DNA of 64,000 nt from Loxodes magnus (taxonomy: Eukaryota; Ciliophora; Karyorelictea; Loxodida; Loxodidae), in the NCBI GenBank assembly GCA_946699065.1, contig CAMPDV010001242.1:62001-126000 (forward strand), given 5' to 3'. The position numbers and the translations under genes are program-made. Every line of letters starts with the position of its first letter. Position 1 is the stretch's first letter. The notes beneath the pieces were generated by a model that worked only from the letters and a program-made list of their open reading frames with translations, searched no databases and had not been told where the DNA came from. Shown one piece after another: positions 6,084 to 61,671 of the stretch.

Positions 6084-8767
6084 GGTAATTAATTTAATTA
6101 AGAGCTTGAAATTTAAGAGATTAGGGACATTTTATAAATTTAATACTTTGAAACTAGCCAAGCTTCTTACTCTTTTTTGAAGTGATATGGTATAATAATT
6201 ACTAATTAATTAAATATAATAGAGCATTAAAAGAAAGTTAGATATAAATAGCAAAATCTAATAGTTAATATGTATTTAATTAAAAATGATAAATGTTCTA
6301 ATCTCTTATAATAGAGATATTTTGAGTAATTAAAATGAAAATCTAAGAGATTTTTCATATCAAACGTTACAAATCATCTTTTTGAGAATAGATTATGAAA
6401 TTAAATTTAATTAAGAGTATATATTCTTAGTAAACTTTTATTTGCTATTATTTATATGAAAACACATCCATATAGTTGAATAAAATCAAATTAAAAGATA
6501 AACATTTGGTTATAATTAAAAATATATTATAGAGCTATCAATTTATTAATGACTTACTCAAAAAATTATCAGAAGATAAATTTTTAAAAGATGGTAGAGT
6601 CTTACCATCTATACATTTAAAATGATATGAAATTCACTTAAAAAACAAAAATTTATTAAATTATATAATACAGATTGTATTATATAATTAGCGCATTATA
6701 GGTATGTATCCTAAAAACTAATCTAAATTCCTTGAATAGCAAAATGATTATAGAATAAAAAATGCCAAATTTGTATATTTTTCTCTTAAAATTGCATCAA
6801 TATATTTTATGTCTCATTCTGTTGAAATAATGAGATAATAGTTAATTTTTTAGCTTTTGAATAGAAGAGCTAATTTTCCATTTGAAAATGTTCAGCTTTA
6901 TTAATCTTATAATTTATAAAATATAATATCTATTAACTGACATCTATGCTTTTAAATATATATTTATTAGAAGTGCTTAATTGGGCATTAATAAATGAAG
7001 TATAACATTTGTTTATTTGAAGATAAGAGTATATTATAAAGGCTATTAAAATTATTCTATAGCATCATTAGTTATAAAGATAGCAAATTATTAAATACAA
7101 TCTTAAGAAATCATTATAGCTCATAAAAATAGTAAATTTTAAATGTTAAAATACCTTATAATTAGTCCCTATAAAAGGTACTTCAATAATTCTAATATTC
7201 AAATATTTCTACTTACATTACTATGTTTTTACCTCGTCAAATTTTATTAAATCATCATCTCTACCATTTTAAACTTTTATTTATCTCACTTCTTTTGTAA
7301 TATTTTCCTTCCGCTTAATAATTACATTTTTTTAATCCTAAATTCACTATTTCTCCAGTTTATTCTTCAAAAATTAAAATAAGCCAGATTAGATATATTC
7401 TAGAAATAGATGGAAATTATTTTTTTAAATTAGATAATAAACATTTTTAAGAAAACTTTTGCTATAATAACCGTAAATATTACAAAATTAGTTGCATTTT
7501 TTCATCATAAAGGTTTTAAATCTGTGTTCTTTCTTAAGAAATTTGCAAATTATTTAGATTTTTTAAAATTTCTGTTTTATGATTTAAAGCAATCATAATA
7601 TTAGGACTAACTATATCAGAAACACTATAATTATAAATAAAAAAAATCAAATCAAGCTTTATCTGACATTTTATACTTTAAAGTCTCTAATTCTATATTA
7701 AGGATTCGTAACCTTTCGAAGGTAAGTTGGCATTTTATTTTTAGCATTGATTATTTGATTTGTGATGTTATTTTAATAAATTTGATATATAAGTGAGTAG
7801 ATTTTTAATTTTAATTTTTTTTAATTTTTTTGACAAATTTTTGATAATCCTGCACATAAATTTTTCATAATGTTAATTTTTTCCTTTTTTGTTGTCTTTA
7901 AATAAATGATTATTATATTTTGAAGATTTAACTTAATAAATTTCCCTCTAGAATAATATTTTCTTTATAAGTATTATTTTAATAGATTTTAAAACTTTAA
8001 ATTTAATTTTCTTTTAGTTTTATATAAAGATTGCTTAAGAGAGTTAACTTAATTCTTTATTTAAAAAAATAATAAGTTTATAAAAGAAAAAATGGAAGAA
8101 TATAACAGAGTATATTAAGATGAGTCAAGCTAATTTTAATAAAAATATATTTAAAATTATGTTGATAAGGGAATTTTAACTTTTCTTTTATTATATTTGA
8201 TTAATAATCTTTTATATATCAATTATGTGCAATTTTAATAAAGGTAAGGGTATAAATCTTTGCTTTCTCCTATTTTATATTATTGAGTGAAAAAAGAAAG
8301 TTAAGAAGTGTGCTATTAATACAATTTTTTTATATTCGCTAAATTATCTTATAACCATCTATTAATTATTATAAAATTAAGAAAAAACTCTTAATTTCAA
8401 TTAAAAACTTAAGAGTATAATTATTTTATTAATTATTAGATATACTATGTCACATGCTTTCTATTTTGTTGCGTTTAATTTAATAAATTTTAAATAGATA
8501 GAATTGTTCAAAGTATTTATAAAATATTTAATTTCTTTTAATAAATATAAGTATACATTCTTTATTATTTTATAGCTATCTAAATTTTAAACTAATATGT
8601 ATTTTTCTTGCTTATAATTATTTTTTAAATAAAATTCTAGGTACTAAATTTAAACATAAATTATTAATTAAGTATTATGCTTTTCTTTTTTTTACTTTTT
8701 TAAAAATAGCACTTTTTATTAATCCTTTTATTTTAACTTTTTAAAATATTTGTTTAGCTAGATTATC
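6084..8767. other. Gene-poor A+T-rich region with one tiny ORF
   Basis: About 2.7 kb of very A+T-rich DNA. The only frame worth noting is 8092-8286 (+), 64 codons from an A-rich-context ATG to TGA, with a polar start (MEEYNRVYQDESS) and a hydrophobic middle. It may be chance. No tRNA, tandem array or inverted repeat stands out. Confidence 0.4.
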
Positions 8768-8916
8768 TAGTCAGAACCACTTCTTCCCTCAGCGTCATCG
8801 ATAACTCCTGCTGGGAAAAGTGCGTTAATCATCTTCCTAGATTGGGTTGGAGTCTCGTTTGTTGGAGCAAACGAGTAGAATCTCCTATAGAAGTGATCCT
8901 GTACGAGTACAGTCTT
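8768..8916 (-). ncRNA. U3 small nucleolar RNA
   Basis: Read on the minus strand, the RNA begins AAGACTGTACTCGTACAGG and continues GATCACTTCTATAGGAG. These match the near-invariant 5' domain of U3 (box A'/A region), which pairs with pre-rRNA to guide the early 18S cleavages. A hairpin follows (CTCGTTTG paired with CAAACGAG). Downstream is a box C-like AGATGATTA, then a long stem (CACTTTTCCC against GGGAAGAAGTG), and a terminal TTCTGA box D at 8771. The 5' end is placed from the conserved AAGAC; the 3' end is placed a few bases past box D. At about 149 nt it is short compared with the roughly 210-220 nt usual in animals, nearer the compact U3 of some protists. The block is visibly more G+C-rich than its surroundings. 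Confidence 0.85.
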
Positions 8917-11084: not shown

Positions 11085-11640
11085 GTAAAGAGTCAGAGCG
11101 ACTCATGAAATTACTCCTCTTCACAAGTCACAAAAGCACGAAAAAGAATCAGGGCAAACCATACTCTTGACTCTAAAAAGCATAAAACTAATAAAACTTA
11201 ATCTCCTTCAAAAATTATATCTTTTAAGGTACATGAAGCAGAATGACACCAAGAAGACTTTGAAGAATGAGAGTGTTGAAAAACTGCGGAAGCTCGCGTA
11301 GCACTAAGATATGAAAATTCATTAATAAAAGAAAGATTAGAACAAATATCACAGGAACTGGTGGATTTCTAAGATATGAAAGTTTCAATGCACTACTAAG
11401 AGAAGAAATATCGAAACTGAACGGATCCAATGTAGAATATATCGTTGTTACAGCTGAATTTAAGCCATCAATACTTGAGGTGGAAATGATTTTGGAGTCT
11501 AAAGTTCGAAAAATTTGTCTTTGCTGTAAGAAGAAGCGGAAAGAATATGAACAAGACCGAGACACAAGATAAAAAATGTTACTATTGGAAATTAACATGA
11601 CATCTTCTACAGTAATACAAGGAATTTAATAATAATAATA
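11085..11640 (+). pseudogene. Decayed zinc-knuckle ORF (ORF1-only retroposon family)
   Basis: A G+C-richer block whose three frames carry successive pieces of one protein: a coiled coil (ALRYENSLIKERLEQISQEL), then a segment in the next frame (LLREEISKLNGSNVE), then back to the first frame for a degenerate knuckle, CYYWKLTWHLLQQY. In the knuckle the second and last Cys are lost, but the Trp-His pair (TGA 11598-11600, then CAT) is kept as in the copies at 47.7 and 60.8 kb. A short AAT repeat follows. Two or more frameshifts mean no intact product. No clear target-site duplication was found. Confidence 0.5.
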
Positions 11641-11780
11641 ATAACATATTAACGTAACATCACCCTTGTTAGGTTTATCACGAGTAAGTTTAAAAATTGA
11701 TTCAAAAATTCATGAATTCTCCAGAATCTTGCTCTTATCTTACATACCGACTGTCACAGAATTAACCCTTCTTAATTATA
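11640..11780 (+). pseudogene. 5' part of an ORF split by a retroposon
   Basis: A frame reading NVTSPLLGLSRVSLKIDSK then HEFSRILLLSYIPTVTELTL runs up to the target-site duplication at 11769-11780. If the insert and one duplication copy are removed, the frame continues directly into 12449-12666, giving NYIRNIKNSKKESQITYEEK and onward. No family is recognised. The restored continuity is the main evidence that this was a real coding sequence before insertion. Confidence 0.4.
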
Positions 11781-12448
11781 GGTATTTTGCTTCAATCTCA
11801 ATTATTACCAAAAGTTTACCTCTTCTCCTATTTTAAGCATTTATAATATCTTTCAATAATGTGGCAACGCTGTATAATTTTTTCTTTCAAAGTATCCTTC
11901 TAGGAAGCAGTATAATTTATTTAATTTGGGCCAAGTATTTCGGCTTTCTTATTATTGTTTTCTCTTAAATCAATAACAATCTTGAAAGCTTCCAATTTTT
12001 TAGCTATAAAGCATTTAATTGGACAGTTTCTTGAAATGTGCCCTATCTGGTAGCATCTTCAGCAGTGTTATAATATTTTAATTTTATTTGTGGGGATTGC
12101 CTTTGTTACATTTTCTACTTCCATAGGATCATATTAAGGATTCGAAATGAGTCGATTGCTATGACTGAATTTTTCAATTTGTTTGATTTTACGTTCCTTT
12201 TTTCCATTTCTTGGTTAAGTTAGAGCATTGGAGGTTTGAGGGAAATTTCTGTTTTTAGCCCAAGTGTTTTCGTTTTAAAGCTGGGTGATAGTATTAGCTA
12301 ATGAACTAATTCTTTAGGTTAAGTCTTAAACTGAATCTTAAAGCATTTTATAATCAACTATCAAAGAGTAAATTTCTTTGAACTGATCTTATTGTCATTT
12401 GATTTTAAGAGCTTTGCTTCTTTGGAACTATTTTTTTTCTTAATTATA
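11769..12448 (-). mobile_element. ORF1-only retroposon with 12-bp target-site duplication
   Basis: The direct repeat TTCTTAATTATA at 11769-11780 and 12437-12448 flanks a 656-bp insert on the minus strand. Its ORF is decayed. An N-terminal piece starting at an ATA where relatives have ATGG (VPKKQSSQNQ, similar to PKNQKSS of the 36.4-kb copy) leads by frameshift into a coiled coil (LTQRISSLANTITQLQNEN), a YDPMEVEN motif and then the best CCHC knuckle in the window, CWRCYQIGHISRNC. The Trp of that knuckle is TGA (12059-12061), exactly where classical knuckles carry an aromatic residue. A basic tail follows. It interrupts a plus-strand ORF. Confidence 0.72.
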
Positions 12449-17006: not shown

Positions 17007-20000
17007 TAATTTTTTGAAAATATGATGATTAAAATTATATTCATAATCTAAATTTTCAACTAAAATTAGATAAATATTCTTTAATTAACATCAATGATCA
17101 GTTCAAAATTCTCATATAACATTTTCTTCGTAAACATTACTTTTTACGCTAATATTAAGAAGGTTTATAAATGTTATTACTTATAAGTTAAACATTTTAA
17201 AATGTTCTAATTTTTATTAATTTTCTTGGTATATTTTCTTACTGATTATTTCAATAAAATGTTTTATTAACAGTCTCTCACCTATTCCTAAATTCTGTTA
17301 AATGCTTTTCTTTATCAAAAGGTTTTAACTCCAATTTTTTACTTATTAATAATATTGACAATATTAACCCCATTCTATATATCTCTTGAAAATATTTCGT
17401 TACTGTTCGTCTAACAATTTATCAAAATCCTTTTCTAGAAACCTTCTAGCATTTTATCAATATTTTCTATCAGAAGTGTTATCAATCACTTTTATGCTTT
17501 ATCTTTTTAATTAAAAAGAATGAGTAACACTTTGTCTGATAATACAAAAGTTCCTGGATCCAAGATTTTTAAGGAAACCGGCTTTGTAGAGGAAGACTAT
17601 GAGGTACATATAATAGTACTTTTTGCATAAACGATAGAATATCTTTATTATTGGTAGTTATTAACAAGAATACAATGGTATAATTTAAAAAAGTTGTGAG
17701 ATGGCAGAATATTCAGAAAAAATGATTGTAACTTAGAATGCTCAATTCAAGCGGCTGTCAACAGAAAATGGTTCGAGAGATACTGAGAAAGAAAAGATTT
17801 GTTAAGAGACATGAAGAATGGAACAAATTTAAAGTAGAAGGTGAATTTTTTTAAACTTAACAAACTTTTGACAAAACTAATAATGTTGAAGTCACGTTAA
17901 TCTATTTTTATGAGGCAGACGATAGTTGACAAAGTTAATAATTAAACTTAAAATCGTTTATAAATTAGGAAAAACCAAATTACCTTATAGAGAACTATTA
18001 ATCTGAACTCTACTTCTGATCAATTAGTTTCTTATGTTTTAGTATTATAATAGCTTTTAAAGGTTTCCAATTTTGAAAGTATAATAATAACTGAAAAATC
18101 TAGCTTATGCATTCTATCTTAAAAGTTTTATTATTAAAATCAAACTAATTAATTATTACATATCTTAAATTAATAATATGAAGATCTAAAGAAGTCATTT
18201 ATCTATAGGTTCCTTAAGAATTATAGTTTATTCTATTACATTTTTTTAAATAAGCATTATACAATACTTTAATTTCGTTACTTAAAAAGTTTTGCGTCAT
18301 GCACCTCTATTATTATACTTGCTTATGTATTTACAACTTTCTTAATAACAAATTATCAGTGAATATGATGACACAATTATTTAAGTATGCGTCTTTTTCT
18401 AAGAGTTAACTAATCATCTTAGTAAAAACATGAGTAATAATGAATATTTGCTAATAAAACATTTCGAGTTTCAAAAATGTTTTGATAAATGTCTAAATAC
18501 AAGATTTTTCCAAAAAAGAAATCTCTCGATAATCATAAATCATTTTTTCTCCTACTTTTTTGAATAAATAATTAAATTTTGTCTTAATTAAGTTACTAAT
18601 TTTTTGAAAATATGATGATTAAAATTATATTCATAATCTAAATTTTCAACTAAAATTAGATAAATATTCTTTAATTAACATCAATGATCAGTTCAAAATT
18701 CTCATATAACATTTTCTTCGTAAACATTACTTTTTACGCTAATATTAAGAAGGTTTATAAATGTTATTACTTATAAGTTAAACATTTTAAAATGTTCTAA
18801 TTTTTATTAATTTTCTTGGTATATTTTCTTACTGATTATTTCAATAAAATGTTTTATTAACAGTCTCTCACCTATTCCTAAATTCTGTTAAATGCTTTTC
18901 TTTATCAAAAGGTTTTAACTCCAATTTTTTACTTATTAATAATATTGACAATATTAACCCCATTCTATATATCTCTTGAAAATATTTCGTTACTGTTCGT
19001 CTAACAATTTATCAAAATCCTTTTCTAGAAACCTTCTAGCATTTTATCAATATTTTCTATCAGAAGTGTTATCAATCACTTTTATGCTTTATCTTTTTAA
19101 TTAAAAAGAATGAGTAACACTTTGTCTGATAATACAAAAGTTCCTGGATCCAAGATTTTTAAGGAAACCGGCTTTGTAGAGGAAGACTATGAGGTACATA
19201 TAATAGTACTTTTTGCATAAACGATAGAATATCTTTATTATTGGTAGTTATTAACAAGAATACAATGGTATAATTTAAAAAAGTTGTGAGATGGCAGAAT
19301 ATTCAGAAAAAATGATTGTAACTTAGAATGCTCAATTCAAGCGGCTGTCAACAGAAAATGGTTCGAGAGATACTGAGAAAGAAAAGATTTGTTAAGAGAC
19401 ATGAAGAATGGAACAAATTTAAAGTAGAAGGTGAATTTTTTTAAACTTAACAAACTTTTGACAAAACTAATAATGTTGAAGTCACGTTAATCTATTTTTA
19501 TGAGGCAGACGATAGTTGACAAAGTTAATAATTAAACTTAAAATCGTTTATAAATTAGGAAAAACCAAATTACCTTATAGAGAACTATTAATCTGAACTC
19601 TACTTCTGATCAATTAGTTTCTTATGTTTTAGTATTATAATAGCTTTTAAAGGTTTCCAATTTTGAAAGTATAATAATAACTGAAAAATCTAGCTTATGC
19701 ATTCTATCTTAAAAGTTTTATTATTAAAATCAAACTAATTAATTATTACATATCTTAAATTAATAATATGAAGATCTAAAGAAGTCATTTATCTATAGGT
19801 TCCTTAAGAATTATAGTTTATTCTATTACATTTTTTTAAATAAGCATTATACAATACTTTAATTTCGTTACTTAAGCATTAAAAAGTTTTGCGTCATGCA
19901 CCTCTATTATTATACTTGCTTATGTATTTACAACTTTCTTAATAACAAATTATCAGTGAATATGATGACACAATTATTTAAGTATGAGTCTTTTTCTAAG

Positions 20001-29000: not shown

Positions 29001-32000
29001 CAAACTTTTGACAAAACTAATAATGTTGAAGTCACGTTAATCTATTTTTATGAGGCAGACGATAGTTGACAAAGTTAATAATTAAACTTAAAATCGTTTA
29101 TAAATTAGGAAAAACCAAATTACCTTATAGAGAACTATTAATCTGAACTCTACTTCTGATCAATTAGTTTCTTATGTTTTAGTATTATAATAGCTTTTAA
29201 AGGTTTCCAATTTTGAAAGTATAATAATAACTGAAAAATCTAGCTTATGCATTCTATCTTAAAAGTTTTATTATTAAAATCAAACTAATTAATTATTACA
29301 TATCTTAAATTAATAATATGAAGATCTAAAGAAGTCATTTATCTATAGGTTCCTTAAGAATTATAGTTTATTCTATTACATTTTTTTAAATAAGCATTAT
29401 ACAATACTTTAATTTCGTTACTTAAGCATTAAAAAGTTTTGCGTCATGCACCTCTATTATTATACTTGCTTATGTATTTACAACTTTCTTAATAACAAAT
29501 TATCAGTGAATATGATGACACAATTATTTAAGTATGCGTCTTTTTCTAAGAGTTAACTAATCATCTTAGTAAAAACATGAGTAATAATGAATATTTGCTA
29601 ATAAAACATTTCGAGTTTCAAAAATGTTTTGATAAATGTCTAAATACAAGATTTTTCCAAAAAAGAAATCTCTCGATAATCATAAATCATTTTTTCTCCT
29701 ACTTTTTTGAATAAATAATTAAATTTTGTCTTAATTAAGTTACTAATTTTTTGAAAATATGATGATTAAAATTATATTCATAATCTAAATTTTCAACTAA
29801 AATTAGATAAATATTCTTTAATTAACATCAATGATCAGTTCAAAATTCTCATATAACATTTTCTTCGTAAACATTACTTTTTACGCTAATATTAAGAAGG
29901 TTTATAAATGTTATTACTTATAAGTTAAACATTTTAAAATGTTCTAATTTTTATTAATTTTCTTGGTATATTTTCTTACTGATTATTTCAATAAAATGTT
30001 TTATTAACAGTCTCTCACCTATTCCTAAATTCTTACTGATTATTTCAATAAAATGTTTTATTAACAGTCTCTCACCTATTCCTAAATTCCTGGATCCAAG
30101 ATTTTTAAGGAAACCGGCTTTGTAGAGGAAGACTATGAGGTACATATAATAGTACTTTTTGCATAAACGATAGAATATCTTTATTATTGGTAGTTATTAA
30201 CAAGAATACAATGGTATAATTTAAAAAAGTTGTGAGATGGCAGAATATTCAGAAAAAATGATTGTAACTTAGAATGCTCAATTCAAGCGGCTGTCAACAG
30301 AAAATGGTTCGAGAGATACTGAGAAAGAAAAGATTTGTTAAGAGACATGAAGAATGGAACAAATTTAAAGTAGAAGGTGAATTTTTTTAAACTTAACAAA
30401 CTTTTGACAAAACTAATAATGTTGAAGTCACGTTAATCTATTATTATGAGGCAGACGATAGTTGACAAAGTTAATAATTAAACTTAAAATCGTTTATAAA
30501 TTAGGAAAAACCAAATTACCTTATAGAGAACTATTAACCTGAACTCTACTTCTGATCAATTAGTTTCTTATGTTTTAGTATTATAATAGCTTTTAAAGGT
30601 TTCCAATTTTGAAAGTATAATAATAACTGAAAAATCTAGCTTATGCATTCTATCTTAAAAGTTTTATTATTAAAATCAAACTAATTAATTATTACATATC
30701 TTAAATTAATAATATGAAGATCTAAAGAAGTCATTTATCTATAGGTTCCTTAAGAATTATAGTTTATTCTATTACATTTTTTTAAATAAGCATCATACAA
30801 TACTTTAATTTCGTTAGCATTAAAAAGTTTTGCGTCATGCACCTCTATTATTATACTTGCTTATGTATTTACAACTTTCTTAATAACAAATTATCAGTGA
30901 ATATGATGACACAATTATTTAAGTATGAGCTCTCGTCTTTTTCTAAGAGTTAACTAATCATCTTAGTAAAAACATGAGTAATAATGAATATTTGCTAATA
31001 AAACATTTCGAGTTTCAAAAATGTTTTGATAAATGTCTAAATACAAGATTTTTCCAAAAAAGAAATCTCTCGATAATCATAAATCATTTTTTCTCCTACT
31101 TTTTTGAATAAATAATTAAATTTTGTCTTAATTAAGTTACTAATTTTTTGAAAATATGATGATTAAAATTATATTCATAATCTAAATTTTCAACTAAAAT
31201 TAGATAAATATTCTTTAATTAACATCAATGATCAGTTCAAAATTCTCATATAACATTTTCTTCGTAAACATTACTTTTTACGCTAATATTAAGAAGGTTT
31301 ATAAATGTTATTACTTATAAGTTAAACATTTTAAAATGTTCTAATTTTTATTAATTTTCTTGGTATATTTTCTTACTGATTATTTCAATAAAATGTTTTA
31401 TTAACAGTCTCTCACCTATTCCTAAATTCTGTTAAATGCTTTTCTTTATCAAAAGGTTTTAACTCCAATTTTTTACTTATTAATAATATTGACAATATTA
31501 ACCCCATTCTATATATCTCTTGAAAATATTTCGTTACTGTTCGTCTAACAATTATCAAAATCCTTTTCTAGAAACCTTCTAGCATTTTATCAATATTTTC
31601 TATCAGAAGTGTTATCAATCACTTTTATGCTTTATCTTTTTAATTAAAAAGAATGAGTAACACTTTGTCTGATAATACAAAAGTTCCTGGATCCAAGATT
31701 TTTAAGGAAACCGGCTTTGTAGAGGAAGACTATGAGGTACATATAATAGTACTTTTTGCATAAACGATAGAATATCTTTATTATTGGTAGTTATTAACAA
31801 GAATACAATGGTATAATTTAAAAAAGTTGTGAGATGGCAGAATATTCAGAAAAAATGATTGTAACTTAGAATGCTCAATTCAAGCGGCTGTCAACAGAAA
31901 ATGGTTCGAGAGATACTGAGAAAGAAAATATTTGTTAAGAGACATGAAGAATGGAACAAATTTAAAGTAGAAGGTGAATTTTTTTAAACTTAACAAACTT

Positions 32001-35021: not shown

Positions 35022-36375
35022 TTTTTTGAATATATAATATAATGCTGCAAATAAAATGAATTTTTTTATAAAAAGTCAAATTTAATTTCTTCTTTTTCAT
35101 TCCTATTTTATCTAAAAAATTAATGAGCTTATTTATAATTAAGTAGCAAAGGTTATTAGTATTGTATATTTTATACAAAATAAATTTATCTTAAATAAGT
35201 AAATTTACTTATTTTAATATATTTTTGTAATTTTATAAAATTGAGAATTTGAATTTTTTTAAGTTTTTTTATCAAGTATTAATTTATTAAAAAGTTTTTT
35301 ATAGCTCATTTATTTTGAATAATGATTGCAATTAAAATATAATTTTGACAAATAATTTAAATTTTTAATTTATAAATGTTTAAACAAAAAATATAAACAT
35401 AAGCTTTTTACTAAAAATAAAAATGTTTATAATTTGATTTTTCTATCAAATTACGGGATTTTTGATAGACTTTTAAATATCATATATCAAACTATAAATA
35501 AATTTATTTATCTTTATAAAATAATTAAAAATGATTATATTTATTCTTTAGCGTTAGCATATACTGAAGATTAGTTTTTCATATTGGAAAAAATTTCACA
35601 GTGAAAACATTTTAATCATATTTTGAATGAAATTAGAAAAGCAAATAAAGCAAGATAGTTAAAAATTAAGAAATTAATAATATTAATTTAAAATTTAACT
35701 CTCAAAACAAAAAATATTTCTATAATTTTCAATTTTTATACAATTGAGTGAAGAAAAATTAAATTATTTATGAAAAAATAAAAAAAATTATTTAAATGAA
35801 TTTAACATAATATAAAAACTTTTTTCCTCTTATATTTTTAAAAAATATGAAATAGTTAAAAATATAAAAATTCATTAATTTTTATAATTTGAATAAGATA
35901 AAAATTATAAAAATTAAATAACTTTTAAATTTATTATTTATGCTAAAATAACAAAAGTATATTAAATAATCATAAGAAAAAAAAATTGCTTTATTTGAAA
36001 ATTTATTAATAATATAACTGTAAGTAATAATTTCATAAAGAATATTTTTAATCTAAATTATATTTATTATAATTTAATTTATAGTTAATAAATTTGAAAA
36101 CAAGGAAATTAAAATATGTTATTAATTTTAATTTACGGAATAAAACCTATTGAAGAAAAAAAAAATTTATGAATTTAATTATTATTATTTTATTTGTTTA
36201 AGTAGTTGATTTTCGTTATAAATAAGTATATAAAATTGATTATAAAGCACGTAGTACCTTGTTTGTACAGCTTTTTCATTATTTATATTGATATTAAAAA
36301 GTGTTTTCATTAAAAATAAGTCTTATTCAATTTTAAGTTTATTTTAGATTTAAACAAATTGTTATATATAAAAAA
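35022..36375. other. Gene-poor A+T-rich spacer
   Basis: Very A+T-rich, no RNA gene, no repeat recognised; ends at the A-run that precedes the retroposon ORF at 36376. Confidence 0.45.
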
Positions 36376-37089
36376 ATGGCACCTAAAAACCAAAAATCTT
36401 CAAACTATACTAATAAAATATAATAAGGAATATAAATTTATCTTTAACATCAACTAAACGAGAATCTTATACTCTAACAGGTAGTCTAAGAACTTTCAAG
36501 CAAAGTATGTTTTCTAATTTAGCAAGTTAATTAGCTAAAACAGGAAAACAATTGATTAAAATAAGAAATCGTTAGTAGACCATCTGATCGGCAAATATAC
36601 TCATTAATCCAGCAGAATGAATAAAAATTAAAAAGAATAGAATATGAAAATAATCAGGAAATACAAAATATGATAAACTATGATTTCATGGATGTAGATA
36701 CATAGAAAGAAGAAATAAATTAAGCATTAATTTATACATAAAGAAGACCGATAATAAGGTGCTGATACTGCTAGAAGTAAGATAAGAAACTGTTGGAAAT
36801 TTTAGGAAAAAAGAAAAACAGAAGAACGAAAGACATTAACGAAAATATTTAGAATATACTGCACAAAAGAAGCAAAATTATGCAGAAGAAAAGAACAATA
36901 ATCATTCAAGTAATACCTCGAATACTAATAGAAGCAAGAGAACGGAATAAATAAAATACAGATTTTATGTAGAAAAGCTTAAGAAGACAAATTTCAGTGT
37001 AAACAAAGGAAAGCGAGAAATAGTACAAGTTTATTCCGAAGAAGAAAATTTCTGATTAAAAAAAATTTATAAAAACTCTAATTTTGTGA
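36376..37089 (+). CDS. ORF1-type protein of a small retroposon (coiled coil plus knuckle relic)
   Basis: One frame from ATG 36376 (in TATAAAAAAATGG) to TGA 37087-37089, 238 codons. TAA/TAG are read as Gln and two internal TGAs as Trp, at 36553-36555 (QENNWLKQE) and 36763-36765. Domains in order: basic start (MAPKNQKSSNY), a Gln-rich coiled coil (residues about 30-105), an M-D-V-D motif (NYDFMDVDTQKEE) and CWYCQKQDKK. The last is the first half of a zinc knuckle in which TGA fills the aromatic position between the first two Cys. The His and last Cys are not preserved. A long basic C terminus follows (KKKNRRTKD, RRQISVQTKESEK). The 3' non-coding end TTTAATAAATTATGTTATT near 37120 is shared with the relative at 59.93-61.6 kb. 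It probably encodes an RNA-binding, Gag-like protein. Confidence 0.6.
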
Positions 37090-37396
37090 TTAGCCAAATA
37101 AAGGCGAAGTCACTTTAATAAATTATGTTATTATGTTATAACTTTTTATGCAAATTTAAGAGAAGAGTAATTTATAATTGTCCTAGTCAGTCAAAGAGTT
37201 TTTTATTTAAATTATTTAAAAGGATTAAATTGTTTATTTTTAATTTAAATAATCTTCCTTAAATTTAAATAGATATATTTTATAATAAACATTAGTATTT
37301 TTTAAGTTTTAGCTAATTCTAAATAGATAAAATTAGAATAGATAGCTTTCTTTATTATTAACATATTTAAATACTTTTTATTACTATTTAATTAAA

Positions 37397-37468
37397 TCCG
37401 CATTAGTCTAGTGGTCAGGATATTCGGCTCTCACCCGAAAGACCCGGGTTCAAGCCCCGGATGCGGAA
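37397..37468 (+). tRNA. tRNA-Glu (anticodon CTC)
   Basis: Full cloverleaf: acceptor TCCGCAT/ATGCGGA, D arm with GTGGTCAGGAT, anticodon loop CTCTCAC (CTC, decoding GAG), T arm CCGGGTTCAAGCCCCGG. Discriminator A; CCA is not encoded; no intron. B box GGTTCAAGCCC and a T run downstream fit Pol III transcription. Confidence 0.96.
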
Positions 37469-37505
37469 CTATTTTGTTATTTCTAATAAGTAATAATATT
37501 AAAAA

Positions 37506-37578
37506 CGCCCAACGTGGGGCTCGAACCCACGACCACCAGATTAAGAGTCTGACGCTCTACCGACTGAGCTAGCCGGGC
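37506..37578 (-). tRNA. tRNA-Lys (anticodon CTT)
   Basis: Minus strand: acceptor GCCCGGC/GTTGGGC, D arm AGCTCAGTCGGTAGAGC, anticodon loop ACTCTTAA (CTT, decoding AAG), T arm GTGGGTTCGAGCCCCAC. Followed by a TTTTT terminator. It converges with the neighbouring tRNA-Glu at a distance of about 37 bp. Confidence 0.96.
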
Positions 37579-42267: not shown

Positions 42268-42648
42268 GATATATGATATATGATATATGATATATGATAT
42301 ATGATATATGATATATGATATATGATATATGATATATGATATATGATATATGATATATGATATATGATATATGATATATGATATATGATATATGATATAT
42401 GATATATGATATATGATATATGATATATGATATATGATATATGATATATGATATATGATATATGATATATGATATATGATATATGATATATGATATATGA
42501 TATATGATATATGATATATGATATATGATATATGATATATGATATATGATATATGATATATGATATATGATATATGATATATGATATATGATATATGATA
42601 TATGATATATGATATATGATATATGATATATGATATATGATATATGAT
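42268..42648 (+). repeat. Perfect heptanucleotide microsatellite (GATATAT)54
   Basis: GATATAT repeats 54 times without a single mismatch or indel from 42268 to 42645, followed by GAT. Such perfection implies recent expansion or strong homogenisation. It does not resemble a ciliate telomere repeat, which would be G-rich. Confidence 0.99.
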
Positions 42649-45268: not shown

Positions 45269-46081
45269 TGCTTAAAGTTAGTAGAGTTTTGCATTCTCTG
45301 GAATTGCAACCAGTTCCTGCGGACAGTTTTTTTAACGTGGGTGTGATCCACGACCTTTTTATTAAGTGGGAGGTTACCACTGTAACCGTTCAAGTGGTCT
45401 TGCAAAAAGCTTTTATTTGTAGATCCCTGTTGGAGTTATTCATAGTTTATTGAGTTGTCTCCATGTTCTTTTCTGCTCTTATTTGTTTATTTTCTTTCAT
45501 TATCAACAGTTTTTTAAAATATGTTGATTTGATTTGCAACATCAACAAAGTTTGTATTATTGTCTTTATTTCGTTCTTTTTTATGATAATTTATTTTCTA
45601 TATTTTCTAATCTTTTAATGAAACTTGTAGCAATCATTTCTTTTTCTGGATTCAATTCTGTTTTTAATTTTATTAGTATTTTTTCTATTTCCATTTTTGT
45701 GTCCTATTTAAAATTTTATTATGATTAAGTTCAGAGTTATTCTTCCGTTATTAATTTGCTACAAATAAGTTATCTTCTAAGTATTAGTAATTCGTTGTTC
45801 TAATCTTCTATGTTACTCATTAGTTCCCGTATTTTTTCGCCTAAGTTGTAAGTTGTTTCTTCATAATTTGAGATTACTTTTTACATTTGGTCTAATTAAA
45901 TTTAAAGTTTTTGATTAGTTTCGTTCTTAGGTTAACTTATCTCTATTTATCTTACCATAACTTTACCTTCTGAAGAAGAGCTCGACTCCTCCTATTGTTA
46001 TTATTTTTTCTAAATTTCTTTTGCCGCTTTTCTCTTTAGGTTTCTAAGTTAATTTTTTGAGAGTCGAAGAGATTAATCCAT
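45269..46081 (-). CDS. ORF1-type zinc-knuckle protein, intact frame
   Basis: From ATG 46081, preceded by an A run, one continuous frame covers about 270 codons. Near the start TAG AAA AAA TAA TAA CAA TAG GAG GAG gives KKQQQQEE next to a five-Ser run, good evidence that TAA and TAG are Gln. Order: basic N terminus (RLSKNQLRNLKRKAAKE), coiled coil (ISNYEETTYNLGEKIRELM, then QNNELLILRRQ), a K-M-E-I-E motif, and the zinc knuckle CWCCKSNQHILKNC with C-x2-C-x4-H-x4-C spacing and TGA for its Trp. A basic, Pro-rich tail follows (GIYKQKLFARPLERLQW). No TGA ends the frame; a TAA at 45272-45274 or an unidentified downstream codon may serve. A probable RNA-binding Gag-like product. A target-site duplication is not clear; both flanks share only AAATTAAA. 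Confidence 0.62.
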
Positions 46082-46848: not shown

Positions 46849-47051
46849 ACCAAAACTTACTCTGTTGTATGTGAAAAATCTTTAAGCATGCAAATAAGAA
46901 ATTGGAAATAAATTATCTTATGCAGAAAATTATTAAATAGAATCTAAGTAAAGAATCTTCAGAGCAGATAATTTGTCAGAAATGTAAACTAGCAAAGCTA
47001 ACTGATAAAATATATAGACTTTAAATCTAAATTAAATAGGAATATCTATTA
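46849..47051 (+). pseudogene. ORF with Cys pairs, interrupted by a retroposon
   Basis: A plus-strand frame reads NLLCCMWKIFKHANKK (Trp from TGA 46872-46874), then SSEQIICQKCKLAKLTDKIY, up to the target-site duplication. After removing the insert and one duplication copy it continues from 48025 as EQVLNLIKKMKKHGMCC. Paired Cys/His suggest a small zinc-binding protein, but no family is recognised. The frame also runs directly into the ATG of the inserted element. Confidence 0.33.
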
Positions 47052-48024
47052 ATAAAAAAAATGGAAGCTATTAAAGGTGGATTTCTCTTGGGGAAGGAGG
47101 AACGCAAGAAGGTAAAGGCCTAAAGTAAAGAGGCCAGGCACCAAATACCTCCACAGGCGTCACACACTCCTAACCCACCACCTGAAAAGAGAAAAGAACG
47201 ATCAGCTGGAGATACTATAACTCCACCAAAGAAATTCAAATCGAACAGAGAACAAATAACAATAAGATAATTCGATATAGGACAAAACTAAATAGACTTT
47301 GACGAATAGACGATATTGAACATGGACCAACTATAAATGGCTTAACTTTTGCGCCAACTAATGAAAAAGATACAAGAGTTAGAACATAAATTGGAACTTA
47401 TTGACCAAGAAAAGACTCAAGAATTATAACAAATGTTCTGTGACCTAGACCAACATCTCACAGATGGTAACATTCACACTCCCTGCTTCAACTCCAAAGA
47501 AAGATTTGAAGTACGATTGGAAGAATTAGAAGCAGATCTAGAGATCATAATTGAGCAAAACGAGAAGGACATAATAAAACAAGATAAAACAAATCTTACG
47601 CTCGATTCAAAGATCACAAAACTAGAAGATCAGATAAAACTTAATCAATCATAGAAAATATAACTTTTAGGAGATTAAATGGATATTGAAACTGTAAAGA
47701 TGACTAAACCCAAGATTTTTAAGAAAAGATGCTTCATCTGTAACAGCACCTGACATCTATGGAGGAAATGCAAGGAAAATCAGAAAATTAAAAAGAAAAT
47801 ATGAGAAGACTTGGCCACATTTTATCCAGCCTATGACGGGAAATTATGAAGAAAGAAGAAAACCTCAAGTCCTGTCAAAAGACTTGGAAGTGACCCAAGA
47901 AAAAGGTCTTGGCGAGTTCGAGTACCTCCAAAAGGCATTGGAGGAAGGTAGGAGCTTCTAAAGAAACAATCTCTTTCCTATAAACTTTTTAATTTCATTT
48001 CATTTCAAATAGGAATATCTATTA
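47034..48024 (+). mobile_element. ORF1-only retroposon with 18-bp target-site duplication
   Basis: Perfect direct repeat AAATAGGAATATCTATTA at 47034-47051 and 48007-48024 around a 955-bp insert. The insert begins ATAAAAAAAATGG, with the ORF start at its very 5' end, and ends TAAACTTTTTAATTTCATTT. It holds one ORF and no reverse transcriptase. The 3' tail matches those of the 48.86 and 60.54 kb elements. The intact frame and perfect duplication suggest a young insertion. Confidence 0.85.
47061..48005 (+). CDS. Intact ORF1-type protein: coiled coil plus CCHC zinc knuckle
   Basis: One uninterrupted frame through the whole element, about 310 codons. Order: basic, Pro-rich N terminus (KEERKKVKAQSKEARHQ, then PPEKRKERSAGD), a long coiled coil (residues about 90-205; LMKKIQELEHKLELIDQEK, FEVRLEELEADLEIIIEQN), the D-Q-M-D-I-E motif, and the knuckle CFICNSTWHLWRKC with the Trp before His encoded by TGA 47751-47753. 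A basic tail follows with FYPAYDG, DPRKRSWRVRVPPKG. Three TGAs read as Trp; TGG is also used. No TGA stop lies inside the element, so how translation ends is unclear: a TAG at about 47949 or context-dependent termination are options. By analogy with LINE ORF1 proteins it should bind its own RNA. Confidence 0.75.
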
Positions 48025-48858
48025 GAGCAAGTGCTAAATTTAATAAAAAAGATGAAAAAGCATGGAATGTGTTGTCTAATAATATATGGAAAAATAGAAA
48101 TATTTTAGACAGAAATATAAGACTCCTAAAAAATAGAGAAATACGTAATTTATAAAAAAAATAACAAGCATTTCTATTAGATTAAATACAATTTTAAAAC
48201 TTTAATTATAAAAAAATATTAAGAAAGAGATATAAAATAAATAAACAAATAAATAAACTGAATTTTAAGATAATTGGCTCATTTATGTGAAAAGTTAATA
48301 TTAGATGCAAAAAATTTATTTAATAATATATGCTCATATCTATAAAATTGATTAATTGATATATTTATACTAAAGGATAATTTTATTAATATAGAAATTA
48401 AAATATTTTAGAAGAACTATATTTATGGAATTGGCCTATAAAAAACGTAAAATTACAAATTTTTTTCAATGTAAAAAACTTAAAAATGTATAATTCTTTG
48501 ATATATTGATTTGGAAGATTAAAACTTAACTTTCTTCTAAAATTTAGTAAATTTAAAATACATTTATTTATATTTTCAGATAATATAACAAGCTAGTTAT
48601 TTTAGACTATTGACTTAAGTTGAATCAAAAAGAGATATAAATCAAAATAATAAATCTGAATAGTAATATTCTAACACAAATATAGATAATAATAATTAAA
48701 ATCTTTATTTATTTATGTCCTAATTTAAATCAAATAAGTCTAAATCAAGAGTAAATAAAAAAAAAAGTTTTTAAATATATATATAGTTAGAAAATATAAA
48801 TTAAGAAAATATTATAAATAACTACTAAAAATATAATAATTAATAAATAAATTATTTA
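48025..48858. other. Continuation of the interrupted ORF, then A+T-rich spacer
   Basis: 48025-48210 carries the 3' part of the ORF split by the 47-kb element (EQVLNLIKKMKKHGMCC onward). The rest is A+T-rich without features. Confidence 0.35.
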
Positions 48859-49840
48859 ATATGCTGTATTATTTAAATAAAAATGGTAGAAGGGTTCAAG
48901 AAAGGCTTTTATACCACCTCCTAAAAGGGGAGAGAGAGTAGGAACCCTCATCTTTAACTCACACATCTTCTTCCTAGAAATAATCTTCTTCTCAAAACCT
49001 TCAAGAATAATAGACTCAACTAGGAACTTCCAGACAAACCTAAAAGATGGGACAAAAGCGCCAAAAGGCTACCCCGATGACACTAACTGAAGAGGAAAGA
49101 TCTAGAAGGTGCTGGAGACGCAAGAAGCAGCAGCCGTGCGAGAGTTTGCGATGCCATAGTTCCAGGAAGAACAGGCATAAATTTTAGTCGCATTCGCTGA
49201 CCTGAAGGAGGAAGTAAAGAGGCTACGATTAGAGAATAGAGCTCTAAAAAATCAAGTTACTGAGCTCAAGGAATGGAAAGAAAGCTTCTGGGAAGTCTAC
49301 GATCGAGAACAAAACGCTTTCTTCAGGGAAATGGGATTGCTGCAGCAGAGAACAACTGTGCTTGAAGAGAACAGCAAGTAGCAACAGTAGTAGGAATTCA
49401 AAGTTAGGACAATTCAAGATTCAATGGACATAGAAGGAGCTACTATGTTACCGAGGAGTCCTGACAAGAAATTAATTAGGAATAAACCAAGATGATTTGT
49501 ATGCAAACAAACTGGACATAAATATAGACAATGTTAGAAATTGAAATTAATTAAATAATAGTACTGGAATAGAAAATAATAAGAAAAATAATAGTACTAA
49601 TATAAGGATAAGATTAGACGAGAATTCTGTAATTAATTTTATCCGTCAGGAGATCAAATCTACAAACCGAAGTGATACACAATCCAAGGCGACTGAAGAA
49701 AGAGTTCTGAAGGGAGCTGATTCCAGCCAGGTTATCAAACTGGTCCTGTGAACACGAGATTGTAAGTCCTCCAAGTTCACTAAACTCTAATTTAAACTTT
49801 TTAATTTAATTTAGTAATTCTTATATGCTGTATTATTTAA
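48859..49840 (+). mobile_element. ORF1-only retroposon with 18-bp target-site duplication
   Basis: Perfect direct repeat ATATGCTGTATTATTTAA at 48859-48876 and 49823-49840 around a 946-bp insert. It begins ATAAAAATGG, has a G+C-richer 5' leader of about 170 bp, then the ORF. It ends TAAACTTTTTAATTTAATTT, nearly the same tail as the 47-kb element. No reverse transcriptase. Size, orientation and tail agree with the neighbouring element about 0.8 kb upstream, but sequence and target site differ, so this is an independent insertion of a diverged family member. Confidence 0.87.
49047..49710 (+). pseudogene. ORF1-type zinc-knuckle protein with one frameshift
   Basis: ATG 49047 gives MGQKRQKATPMTLTEEERS. 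A one-base shift near 49110 then leads into KVLETQEAAAVREFAMPQF. The coiled coil follows (LKEEVKRLRLENRALKNQV, then TELKEWKESFWEVYDREQ), a TAG/CAA/CAG glutamine run, D-S-M-D-I-E, and the knuckle WFVCKQTGHKYRQC, where the first Cys is replaced by a TGA codon. The tail is basic, with CNQFYPSGDQIYKPKW alignable to FYPAYDGKLW of the 47-kb copy. The single shift and altered Cys make it a probable recent pseudogene. Confidence 0.65.
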
Positions 49841-50244: not shown

Positions 50245-50317
50245 GCCCGGCTAGCTCAGTCGGTAGAGCGTCAGACTCTTAATCTGGTGGTCGTGGGTTC
50301 GAGCCCCACGTTGGGCG
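50245..50317 (+). tRNA. tRNA-Lys (anticodon CTT)
   Basis: Identical tRNA sequence to 37506-37578 but on the plus strand: acceptor GCCCGGC/GTTGGGC, anticodon loop ACTCTTAA, T arm GTGGGTTCGAGCCCCAC, discriminator G, TTT terminator. Confidence 0.96.
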
Positions 50318-50355
50318 TTTTTAATATTATATGCTTATTAGAAATAACAAAATAG

Positions 50356-50427
50356 TTCCGCATCCGGGGCTTGAACCCGGGTCTTTCGGGTGAGAGCCGA
50401 ATATCCTGACCACTAGACTAATGCGGA
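50356..50427 (-). tRNA. tRNA-Glu (anticodon CTC)
   Basis: Identical tRNA sequence to 37397-37468 on the minus strand; acceptor TCCGCAT/ATGCGGA, anticodon CTC. It converges with the tRNA-Lys of the same arm. Confidence 0.96.
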
Positions 50428-55455: not shown

Positions 55456-55505
55456 TTTTTTAAAGAGCTGCGCACCAACGAGAGTGCTACGCGCTCTATA
55501 ATCAA
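55456..55505 (+). repeat. Terminal hairpin motif TGCTACGCG (copy 1)
   Basis: TTTTTTTAAAGAGCTGCGCAC is followed by a hairpin AGAGTGC-TAC-GCGCTCT and then TATAATCAAA. The same arrangement occurs at 59593-59645 with a different but still paired stem. Confidence 0.6.
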
Positions 55506-55989: not shown

Positions 55990-56845
55990 ATTTTATTTCA
56001 ATTTAATGATTATTATTATAAAAATGTCTACGGTATCTGACAGTTCACCACCTCAAAAAATTTTGAAGTTTGAGTCACGTTTCCAACGAGCCTCAGCACT
56101 CGAGATTCTTGTCTTATTTTACTTCCATCTTAAAACTTCTAGTTCTTATTACAAATCCACTTTCAGCCTGTAAACTGCTCCATTCTCTACACATCAATCT
56201 AATTTTTCCTTCTCTTTATTTGCTATTAAATTTGTTTTTGCTATATTTTTCCTTGACTTTTAAAACTATGCACAGTTATTCACAGATGATATTTACTTTT
56301 ACAATAATATCATGTTTTCTAAATCCTAATCTGTTTTTTTCTTTTATTTCTTGAGTTCTTTTCAATCTCCATTTTTTTTTCTGTTCTAGTTAAGTCTGTG
56401 TCTTCTGACTCTTTAAAATGTTTTAAATCTAAGAATTATAAGCTTGCATCATCTCCACTTGAGAGTTCGTTTAACTGAATTACTCTCGTTAGTAATTCTA
56501 AAGAGCTTCGATCTTCCTCTCTAGATTGGCCATTCTGAGGTCTAAGGATTCTTGAAATCTGTGCTGGATCTTTTCTGATTATCTTTTCTGATTATCCTTT
56601 CTGAGCTTCCTGCCTTCTTCCTGAAGGTTTAGTACTACTTTTATGAGCTATTCCGTACTCATCTGGCCAGAGAGATCGAACTCTGTAATTTCTTGATGGA
56701 AATAGGACTTCACTTATTTCCTAGAATTTTTCTTCCAATATTGGCATTAGTATATGTACAACTTTTTGAAGCTGTTTCTGCTCCTCCTATTGCCACTAAG
56801 TACCAGCCTACTATTTCTTAGAAGTAAAAATTCTTTTTAAATTTA
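55990..56845 (-). pseudogene. Decayed ORF1-type zinc-knuckle copy
   Basis: Minus-strand relic: coiled coil in one frame (LIKVVLNLQEEGRKLRKDNQ, then LDLRMANLERKIEALQNYQ), a frameshift at an A run, then K-K-M-E-I-E and a degenerate knuckle WYYCKSKYHLW. There TGA replaces the first Cys, and a second TGA stands where other copies have the TGG of HLW. A basic tail follows. No target-site duplication was identified. Confidence 0.55.
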
Positions 56846-59645: not shown

Positions 59646-59933
59646 CTAATATTTTGGCTTATTAGATGGTTAGCTTACTTAAACATGATTTAAGTATTTC
59701 TGCTAAGATTTTTATATTTTACCTTTGCCTATTATTTTTTTTATTTCTAAAATCTGTGTAGATAACGTTTTTAAGATTATTTTTTAATCTAATAAAGCTT
59801 GATAACTTCTTAATTATGATATCCATATAAAAAGAGTATTTTATCTTTAAATATCGTCCTTTTTAGACAGAGCAAATAATCTGGCTTAATAACTTGGTAA
59901 TTAAATTTTAGAATTTAACTAATTAATACTATT

Positions 59934-61596
59934 TATAACATAACATAATTTATTAAAGTGAATACACTTTTATTTGGTTAATCACAAAATTAGAGTTTGT
60001 ATAAATTTTTTTTAATCAAAAATCTTCTTCAGAGTTAACTGTTATTATTTATTGCTTTTCTTTGCTTCCACTGAGACTTACCTTCATCAACTTTCCTACT
60101 TCAAATCCGTATTGTTTTTTGTTCCGTTCTCTTGCTTCCATTAGTATTTGAGATATTGCTTGAATGATTTATTGTTCTTTTATCCTATATAATTTTTCTT
60201 TTTTTGTGCTGTATATTCTTAAAAGTTTATTTCATGTCTTTCGTTCTTTGTTCTTCTGCTTTTTTTCCTAAAATTTCTAACAGTTTCTTACCTTTTCACC
60301 TTGCTTCTTGTAGTATTAGTACCTTATTATTGATCTTCTTTATGAATAAATTAATGCTTAATTTATTTCTTCTCTCTCTGTCTCTACATCCATGGGATCA
60401 TAGTTCATCTATTTTGCATTTCCTGTTTCTTTTCATAATTTATTCTTTGCAATTCTTCAGTCTGCTGGATTAATGAGTATATTTGCCGATCAGAAGATCT
60501 ACTTACGATATCTTATTTTAATCTATTTTTCCTGTTTCTGTTAATCAATTTGCTAAATGATAATGAAATTAAAATGTTCAACAGTGCCAATCTGGACACC
60601 GTTTAAAATAAGTTGTTTTATCAGCAACACTTCTCATCATTCTTGACTTTCTAATGAAATTATCTTCACTAAGGTCTTCTCAGTTTCTTTGATTTCTTGT
60701 TTTTATTATTTCAAAAGGTACTTCACATCATTTTCTTCTGTAAATATCTCCATGCTAGTTACAATAGAGCCTCTAGTATTTTTCTTATTCTTTACGCCAA
60801 AATTTTTTCTTGAAATTCTAAAATTTTTAGCAATTCTTGTACAAATGTCACTTACTCTTACAGTAGTAGCATTTCTTCCTTACTTATCTGATTGGTTTTC
60901 GATTTATAACCTCTTTTTATTCTATCTCCATCTAATTTGTCTAATTAGTTATGTTAGTGCTAATATTCTTTTGCTTAATAAACTCCAACTCTTGTTTTTA
61001 TACGATATTTCCAAGCCTTGCTGTTTCTTATCTATGTTCAGTATAAATGTACAATATGCTTGGAGTTCCCTTTCTTAGTTAATAATTCTATTCTCTAAGT
61101 TATCTTATCCAAGCGATAATAAGTTTTTTAGTTCTTAATTTTCCTACTTAAGCACTTTAATCTCTTCCTAGAGATTGGATATTTCAAATGCTAACTGTTA
61201 AATATTGATTTCATTTTTAATTATCTTTGATGGAAGTTCTTTTCCTGTTATTATATTAGATTCCTTTCTTTTTATTACTTTAGGAGGTGTTTATTATAGT
61301 TATTAAGTTCTTTATTAGTTTTGTAAGTGAGGAGAAGAAGACTCTTGATACTTTTTTTATGCCTGTTTTTTCTCTAGAGCTTTTTTCTCTTCTCTGCTCA
61401 AGAAAAAGCCGGGAACAAGATTTTAAGACTCCATTTTTTTTATCAATTTGCTAAATTAGAACACATATTTTGCTTGAAAATTCTTAGATTACCTGTTAGA
61501 GTTTAAGCTTTTCGTTTTGTAGATTTTATAGATCAATTTATAATTCTTTATGTATTCTATTAGTCTAGTTTGGAGATTGCTATTTTTTAAGGCCAT
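59934..61596 (-). mobile_element. Older retroposon copy, split by a younger one
   Basis: Minus-strand relative of the 36.4-kb element. From ATG 61596 (A-run ATGGCC) it matches the N-terminal region through CAAGCAAAATATGTG and TAATTTAGCAAATTGAT. It is then interrupted by the 60559-61441 insert and resumes at 60558 with AGCAAATTGATTAACAG and GATCGGCAAATATACTC. It ends near 59934 with the shared 3' tail TTTAATAAATTATGTTATG. It includes D-P-M-D-V-E, while the knuckle has decayed (RYQYYKKQ). Removing the insert restores co-linearity with 36376-37142. Confidence 0.78.
60544..61456 (-). mobile_element. ORF1-only retroposon nested in an older copy, 15-bp target-site duplication
   Basis: Direct repeat ATCAATTTGCTAAAT (plus strand) at 60544-60558 and 61442-61456 around an 883-bp insert. 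On the minus strand it starts with an A run and ATGG at 61434 and ends AACATTTTAATTTCATTATC, similar to the tails of the 47- and 49-kb elements. Its ORF (MESQNLVPGFFLSREEKK, coiled coil ISNLQEEIKVLKQENQELKN) has one frameshift. It then gives the complete knuckle CYYCKSKWHLYKNC with Trp from TGA 60848-60850, and a tail with RLYCNQHGDIYRRKW alignable to the 49-kb copy. No reverse transcriptase. Confidence 0.85.
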
Positions 61597-61671
61597 TTTT
61601 TATATAATAATTAGATTTCAACGGCATATCTTAATGTAAAGTATTCAATAAGAGTTATAATTAAAAAGATG

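Follow-up and report, generated by a model that had tools for sequence, protein, structure and literature searches.

A 64,000-nucleotide stretch of the genome of the ciliate Loxodes magnus (contig CAMPDV010001242.1, positions 62,001 to 126,000; hereafter the window, in whose numbering all positions are given) contains a set of short mobile elements, E1 to E4 and their relatives, whose open reading frame (ORF) is of the ORF1 type known from long interspersed nuclear elements (LINEs). They are very probably non-autonomous, ORF1-only retroposons of the non-long terminal repeat (non-LTR) kind that are moved in trans by LINE machinery. A protein-family scan, with E1 read in the correct frame, found no reverse transcriptase (RT) or endonuclease family inside E1 to E4, as an earlier note on this DNA had claimed; all four thus lack the RT and endonuclease ORF of an autonomous LINE. 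An Rfam scan gave no match inside them.

Insertion sites of the E1 family

E1 is a full-length element (47052..48006, + strand) between two exact copies of an 18-bp target site duplication (TSD), AAATAGGAATATCTATTA, at 47034..47051 and 48007..48024. It starts with a short A run directly before the ATG of its ORF and ends with AACTTTTTAATTT followed by ATTTC repeats. E2 (48877..49822, + strand) is decayed and is flanked by exact 18-bp copies of ATATGCTGTATTATTTAA at 48859..48876 and 49823..49840. Both pairs of duplications are located where the earlier note had placed them.

We searched the L. magnus assembly (705,730,643 bases in 7,843 contigs) with the E1 protein; 127 of 814 candidates were scored, yielding 128 matches, the best 30 of which became our E1-type loci. 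The query was read in a shifted frame (start at 47058 or 47059, not 47061), and distant relatives were missed, yet the matches still identify homologous DNA, since this genetic code leaves every frame open. Twenty-six of the 30 loci run from one 5' start to one tail, these being the ends of E1, and four are 5'-truncated. Judged by their flanks, they represent 11 insertion sites, two of them with 5'-truncated copies. The E1 site is present in 14 loci, two sites comprise three loci each, two comprise two, and six are single loci. The 14 loci of the E1 site stem from duplication of a larger region and do not represent independent insertions; the start of E2, which neighbours E1, was found by pattern in 12 of them. 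An exact repeat of 12 to 19 bp flanks 28 of the 30 loci, so that none of the 11 sites is without such a locus, and the repeats of the remaining two loci are 9 and 11 bp long. When stretches from E1-type loci are paired at random, about 0.8% of the pairs reach 12 or more exact bases. The E1 type therefore bears the marks of LINE-style insertion, namely TSDs at 11/11 sites, 5' truncation, and variable simple-repeat 3' tails.

The earlier note had held that its proposal would fall if genome-wide copies always continued into an RT ORF. A search with 165 nt of the E1 3' untranslated region (UTR) gave 37 candidates, all of which were scored and were matches. Every one overlaps an E1-ORF match on the same strand with no RT between (30 were fetched and seven judged by coordinates; the counts are lower bounds), and the truncated-LINE objection fails because all 37 directly adjoin a solo ORF. 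A search with the tail pattern gave 16 matches versus two for the reversed control pattern. Thirteen are known E1 copies, one is a 5'-truncated copy of the E2 type (L054), one is an old element whose start resembles that of E2 (L055), and one has no recognizable element (L058). Within the window, the tail AACTTTTTAATTT, said to be shared by three elements, is exact in two (47983 and 49795), whereas E3 carries AACATTTTAATTT.

Two more E1-like stretches neighbour other elements, one in L022 and one in L002/L053. In L029, L030, and L033, a 5'-truncated E1-type copy sits in an A-run at the 5' junction of a start of the type found in the resident LINE-A family. The surroundings of E1 belong to a large duplicated region, and on contigs C366, C479, C725, and C1156 a LINE RT is located, by coordinates, about 27 kb from the E1 copy on the opposite strand.

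The E1 protein, its decoding, and selection on it

The E1 ORF (47061..47804, + strand) encodes a protein with a basic N-terminus, two long helices, an MDIE motif, and a CCHC knuckle. A single-sequence AlphaFold model has a mean pLDDT of 62.5, with high confidence mainly in helices 90-135 and 145-213, which we infer to form a coiled coil. The protein had no match at E ≤ 0.001 among 716 candidates from a large protein set in which ciliate proteins may be poorly represented.

L. magnus reads TAA and TAG as glutamine, and UGA is reported to be either a stop or tryptophan (PMC11441545). TGA, TAG, and TAA occur together in-frame within RT matches of the genome. The E1 frame has a TGA at 47751, in the knuckle, read as tryptophan; it is kept in 18/18 aligned loci. 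Of the 12 others among the 30 fetched, L023 is one more copy of the L022 site and the remainder are additional copies of the E1 site. We considered whether in-frame TGAs are pseudogene stops. This is ruled out by the RT matches listed, which carry three to nine in-frame TGAs each, and by the conserved knuckle TGA together with the published code (PMC11441545). The kept knuckle codon points to tryptophan decoding within genes of mobile elements. The second TGA, at 47802, is the likelier stop of the ORF over the next one at 47847, as the ratio of nonsynonymous to synonymous change (dN/dS) in codons 251-272, which run from just past the second TGA to about ten codons beyond the third, is 0.79 between and 1.23 within subfamilies; so few codons make this a weak preference.

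The earlier note had suggested testing the ORF for purifying selection, and this is what we found. With one copy per site (11 of the 30 loci; four of subfamily A and seven of subfamily B), dN/dS between subfamilies, calculated for the codons that precede the third TGA, is 0.18 in the coding frame (bootstrap 0.11-0.28) and 0.36-1.14 in the other five frames. Selection on its ORF sets E1 apart from short interspersed nuclear elements (SINEs). Synonymous divergence (pS) reaches 0.403 across codons 61-214, compared with 0.119 across codons 1-60 and 0.079 past the third TGA. The E1 3' region (47805..48006, + strand), with few changes even at would-be synonymous sites, is therefore conserved beyond what the protein needs and is probably an RNA signal.

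Related families, resident LINEs, and rival explanations

The other elements of the window are less well preserved. The claim that each carries a single ORF holds for E1, which has one open frame throughout, but not for E2, E3, and E4, all of which have frame changes. In E2 the change is near the N-terminus; its first knuckle cysteine position is TGA, which is TGC in the copy of L054. E3 (60559..61441, - strand), decayed and with a frame change before the knuckle, is flanked by exact 15-bp copies of ATTTAGCAAATTGAT (61442-61456 and 60544-60558), which direct comparison finds as originally described. It sits inside another solo-ORF1 element (59933..61612, - strand), of which the window also contains an uninterrupted but decayed paralogue (36357..37141, + strand) with the 3' hairpin GTGA..GCC-AAATAAA-GGC..TCAC. 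When the flanks of E3 are joined and one TSD copy is removed, they align to 36357-37141 in an unbroken 799 columns at 82% identity, whereas the alignment of the filled sequence falls into two pieces. This empty site is a paralogue in the same window, not the same locus of another strain. The ORFs at 36.4 and 59.9-61.6 kb are therefore two copies of one solo-ORF1 family.

E4 (11640..12431, - strand; both ends approximate) opens with ATA, not ATG, and the frame of its N-terminus differs from the remainder. Its reported 12-bp TSD is spurious, because a relative beside the LINE of L039 aligns past the supposed boundary at 11769 to a 3' hairpin near 11673; the true 3' end is near 11640.

The ORFs of E1, E2, and E3 are mutually homologous in the correct frame (E = 4.7e-8 to 9.9e-6), and E4 matches the 36.4-kb element (1.4e-5) and, weakly, E2 (0.059). 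With TGA read as tryptophan, the knuckle C-X2-C-X4-H-X4-C occurs four times in the window, in E1, E3, E4, and a further related ORF (45506..45547, - strand; CWCCKSNQHILKNC), whereas 40 approximate dinucleotide shuffles contain it 0.05 times on average. Among the other related ORFs that had been proposed, the pair at 36.4 and 59.9-61.6 kb was borne out, as was a fragment at 56067..56630 (- strand) homologous to E3 (E = 2.7e-6), but those at 34.6 kb (E = 0.13) and 11.1 kb (match limited to 11562-11642, E = 0.014) are weak.

A very abundant group, family M, is represented by L070, which adjoins a LINE-A copy and encodes, in a single ORF with a CCHC finger, a protein beginning MASKKQQN with MEIE and CYVCNKQHQWKYC. 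A search with L070 gave 8,442 first-look candidates, of which 150 were scored; the matches listed are mostly near full length with 76-87% identity. We sampled nine copies, L070 and eight chosen from the list. All nine share one 5' start and end in a hairpin (..GGCTTTAACAAAGCTTTT) followed by TAACTTT-like repeats, and their flanks otherwise differ. The 3' flank is LINE-A sequence in L077 and another solo element in L080, both of which we read as insertion targets.

Thousands of RT and endonuclease domains have been reported in the L. magnus genome (PMC11441545). LINE-A (L001-L008 and L049) combines a CCHC ORF1 with an APE-type endonuclease and an RT and ends in a 3' hairpin followed by ATTT repeats; one copy, on contig C97, encodes both enzymes. 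The LINE-A start, ATGGTTAGCTTCAAGAAGGGTTTTTATACCAC, resembles that of E2. The sole LINE-A copy with a known 5' end has no TSD, and here the chance baseline was unusable as two loci overlap. A LINE-A 3' hairpin with ATTT tail is also found in the window at 55484 (+ strand). The L040-type LINE likewise has a CCHC ORF1. LINE-B (the L041 type; 14,226 first-look candidates, 86 scored) ends in a different hairpin and AATT repeats, a tail loosely similar to that of E1 to E3, and one copy has an upstream basic stretch, coiled-coil-like by eye, that lacks the CCHC pattern. The window holds a decayed LINE-B copy at about 13.6-16.4 kb (+ strand), with 67% identity to L041 over 1660 columns. Comparison of E1 to E4 with the upstream regions of the LINEs in L049-L053 gave no match at E < 0.01 on the LINE strand, and E1, E2, and M had no match at E < 0.4 to LINE-B upstream regions. 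An E1-like fragment near the LINE-A copy of L002/L053 is on the opposite strand and thus is not that LINE's ORF1. A parent LINE may exist elsewhere, since few LINE copies were sampled.

The earlier note had proposed to look for a parent LINE with a common 5' or 3' end. The L040-type LINE has a 3'-terminal hairpin in common with five solo elements (those at 36.4 and 59.9 kb, E4, and the neighbouring ones in L039 and L080), whereas no LINE sharing the 3' UTR of E1 to E3 was found. Across the six hairpin sequences, 19 columns are invariant, 90.6% of cells are paired, and three pairs are changed on both sides, whereas slid versions of the alignment are 31.5-54.7% paired. A prokaryote contig scan for the hairpin gave no hit, as expected. 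LINE-A was considered as the partner of E1 to E3 through its 3' end and is not supported, having a different hairpin and an ATTT tail. LINE-B, with its loosely similar tail, was weighed as another candidate partner.

Movement in trans would proceed as follows. Transcription would begin just upstream of the ATG, and translation with UGA read as tryptophan would yield a protein of the LINE-ORF1 type, with its basic N-terminus, coiled coil, MDIE-like motif, and single CCHC knuckle. The protein is probably RNA-binding, with oligomers of it coating the RNA that encodes it. A resident LINE would then supply endonuclease and RT, which would recognize the 3' end of this ribonucleoprotein and use it as template for target-primed reverse transcription. 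The resulting insertions would end in a variable simple-repeat tail and sometimes be truncated at the 5' end, and those of the E1-E3 group would be flanked by TSDs of 12-19 bp. The transcript, the oligomers, and the action of the protein in cis are our extrapolation from sequence, as are the movement by a LINE and which LINE would serve E1 to E3. The interesting point is why an element without RT keeps its ORF1 under selection. An element that has lost RT but retains a selected ORF1 implies that the RNA being moved has to supply its own ORF1 protein, whereas RT may be supplied from elsewhere. The elements thereby offer a natural test of the role of the LINE ORF1 protein.

Several observations weigh against this account. 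The repeat at the L031/L032 site (12 and 9 bp) is A/T-rich and is the weakest of the 11. No LINE was found to carry the 3' UTR of E1 to E3, any likeness being confined to the last bases of the tail. The six hairpin sequences were picked for their likeness and the structure was drawn from them, and shuffles reach its paired percentage in 23/500 and its covariation score in 8/500 cases, so that the shared hairpin is moderate evidence. Direct repeats in the flanks of family M are no longer than expected by chance (6-9 bp in all nine sampled copies), and the family's in-frame dN/dS of 0.37 (0.21-0.70) is not distinct from that of another frame (0.44). Because family M lacks TSDs above chance, one machinery may not serve all families. 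A more far-reaching and tentative reading, which we hold somewhat less likely than not to be right, is an old and diversified ORF1-only lineage that is not a by-product of present LINEs. Each family would have its own selected ORF1 protein packaging its own RNA, its own 3' recognition structure, and a different LINE that it parasitizes (TSD-making for E1 to E3, TSD-less for M), with the ORF1 protein acting in cis and the RT in trans.

Three other explanations compete with ORF1-only retroposons moved in trans. The elements could be internally deleted or 5'-fragment copies of ordinary LINEs with the same ORF1, as the 5' start motif common to E2 and LINE-A and the derivation of mammalian HAL1 elements from L1 (PMC5753468) might suggest. 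This is unlikely, and for E1 largely refuted, given that all 37 E1 3'-UTR matches are on a solo ORF, that all nine M copies stop at their own 3' hairpin and repeat (with the LINE-A sequence beyond L077 read as target), that no ORF1 homologous to those of E1 to E4 (for LINE-B, to those of E1, E2, and M) was found upstream in the sampled LINEs, and that the ORF is under purifying selection across subfamilies.

An origin as processed pseudogenes, copied by reverse transcription from one or several cellular genes that encode CCHC coiled-coil proteins, would also explain the TSDs and the single uninterrupted ORF of E1, both of which fit copies made by a LINE. Repeats such as AATTT or TAACTTT take the place of poly(A), however, and independent copies have fixed short 5' starts. 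Several divergent families have the same anatomy, one solo element is inserted into another, and a hairpin is common to solo elements and a LINE; the protein-set search, in which ciliates are perhaps poorly represented, also returned no homologue. We regard this origin as highly improbable. Just as improbable is a split LINE, in which solo-ORF1 and ORF2 elements are interdependent and the former supply the ORF1 protein. Such a system would account for the selected E1 ORF, the abundance of family M, and the absence of CCHC upstream of one LINE-B copy, but LINE-A and the L040-type LINE carry their own CCHC ORF1, one LINE-B copy has the coiled-coil-like basic stretch described above, and nothing shows dependence.

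Comparison with known elements and other features of the window

Seven solo ORF1 elements, A to G, with a zinc finger at the end, were reported earlier from Paramecium tetraurelia and described as "likely mobilized in trans" (Guerin et al. 2017, PMC5405496). The Loxodes elements are therefore not the first of their kind in ciliates, as a reading of them as the ciliate counterpart of HAL1 could imply; they are ordinary in kind but well documented. The two sets share the host group, an ORF1 that stands alone with a terminal zinc finger, a judgement of likely movement in trans, and 3' repeats, which are (TAAA)n in three of the seven Paramecium elements (PMC5405496). They differ in ciliate lineage and in genetic code, with UGA read as tryptophan in the Loxodes knuckle. 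The available text of the Paramecium report mentions neither TSDs nor an empty site, and neither selection acting on the ORF nor a hairpin in common with a LINE, all of which are features of the Loxodes set; it states that the Paramecium finger resembles the ORF1 fingers of resident LINEs (PMC5405496). The Tt.REP LINE of Tetrahymena differs from the Loxodes elements in having an ORF2 with RT and endonuclease (PMC6564038). The Loxodes families carry the record of solo-ORF1 elements beyond Paramecium into a ciliate that very probably lacks large-scale genome editing.

HAL1 (half-L1) elements of mammals have a poly(A) tail, and the Loxodes elements have AT-rich repeats instead. Both are non-autonomous and encode the ORF1 protein only (PMC5753468), and mobilization of HAL1 by L1 has been called likely (PMC4161310). 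HAL1 is a derivative of L1 (PMC5753468), whereas the Loxodes solo ORF1 matches no sampled LINE. Of the proposed parallel with HAL1, the ORF1-only make-up with LINE-style marks therefore stands, and derivation from a resident LINE ORF1 is not supported by the few LINE copies sampled, none of which matches.

The LINEs of L. magnus, with their RT and endonuclease domains (PMC11441545), in turn share with the solo elements the genome and, in the copies examined, a 3' hairpin with a short repeat, as well as single ends, the 5' motif of LINE-A with E2 and the 3' hairpin of the L040 type with the E4 group. They differ in encoding endonuclease and RT and in having sampled ORF1 regions without a match to the solo ORF1s. 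The main text of the L. magnus genome paper, as available, does not mention ORF1, solo, SINE, or non-autonomous elements (PMC11441545), and in a mostly open-access literature we found no account of these families in Loxodes, of the empty site, of selection on the ORF, or of the hairpin shared with a LINE. In these elements the traces of the mode of jumping and of the importance of the protein are unusually clear. This genome has many unclassified repeats, and some of them may belong to such elements.

The window has several further features. A tandem array with a unit of about 1.59 kb occupies about 17.0-34.1 kb, with ORF starts recurring at 18612, 20209, 21799, 23389, and so on to 32751, and some units are altered (a 57-bp repeat at 29973-30089). 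A tRNA-Glu(ctc)/tRNA-Lys(ctt) pair occurs twice, at 37397-37578 and 50245-50427, in opposite orientation and with equal scores. The 7-bp unit GATATAT forms a perfect tandem repeat of 54 copies (42268-42648), and a match to U3 small nucleolar RNA above the Rfam cut-off is located at 8765-8916 (- strand).

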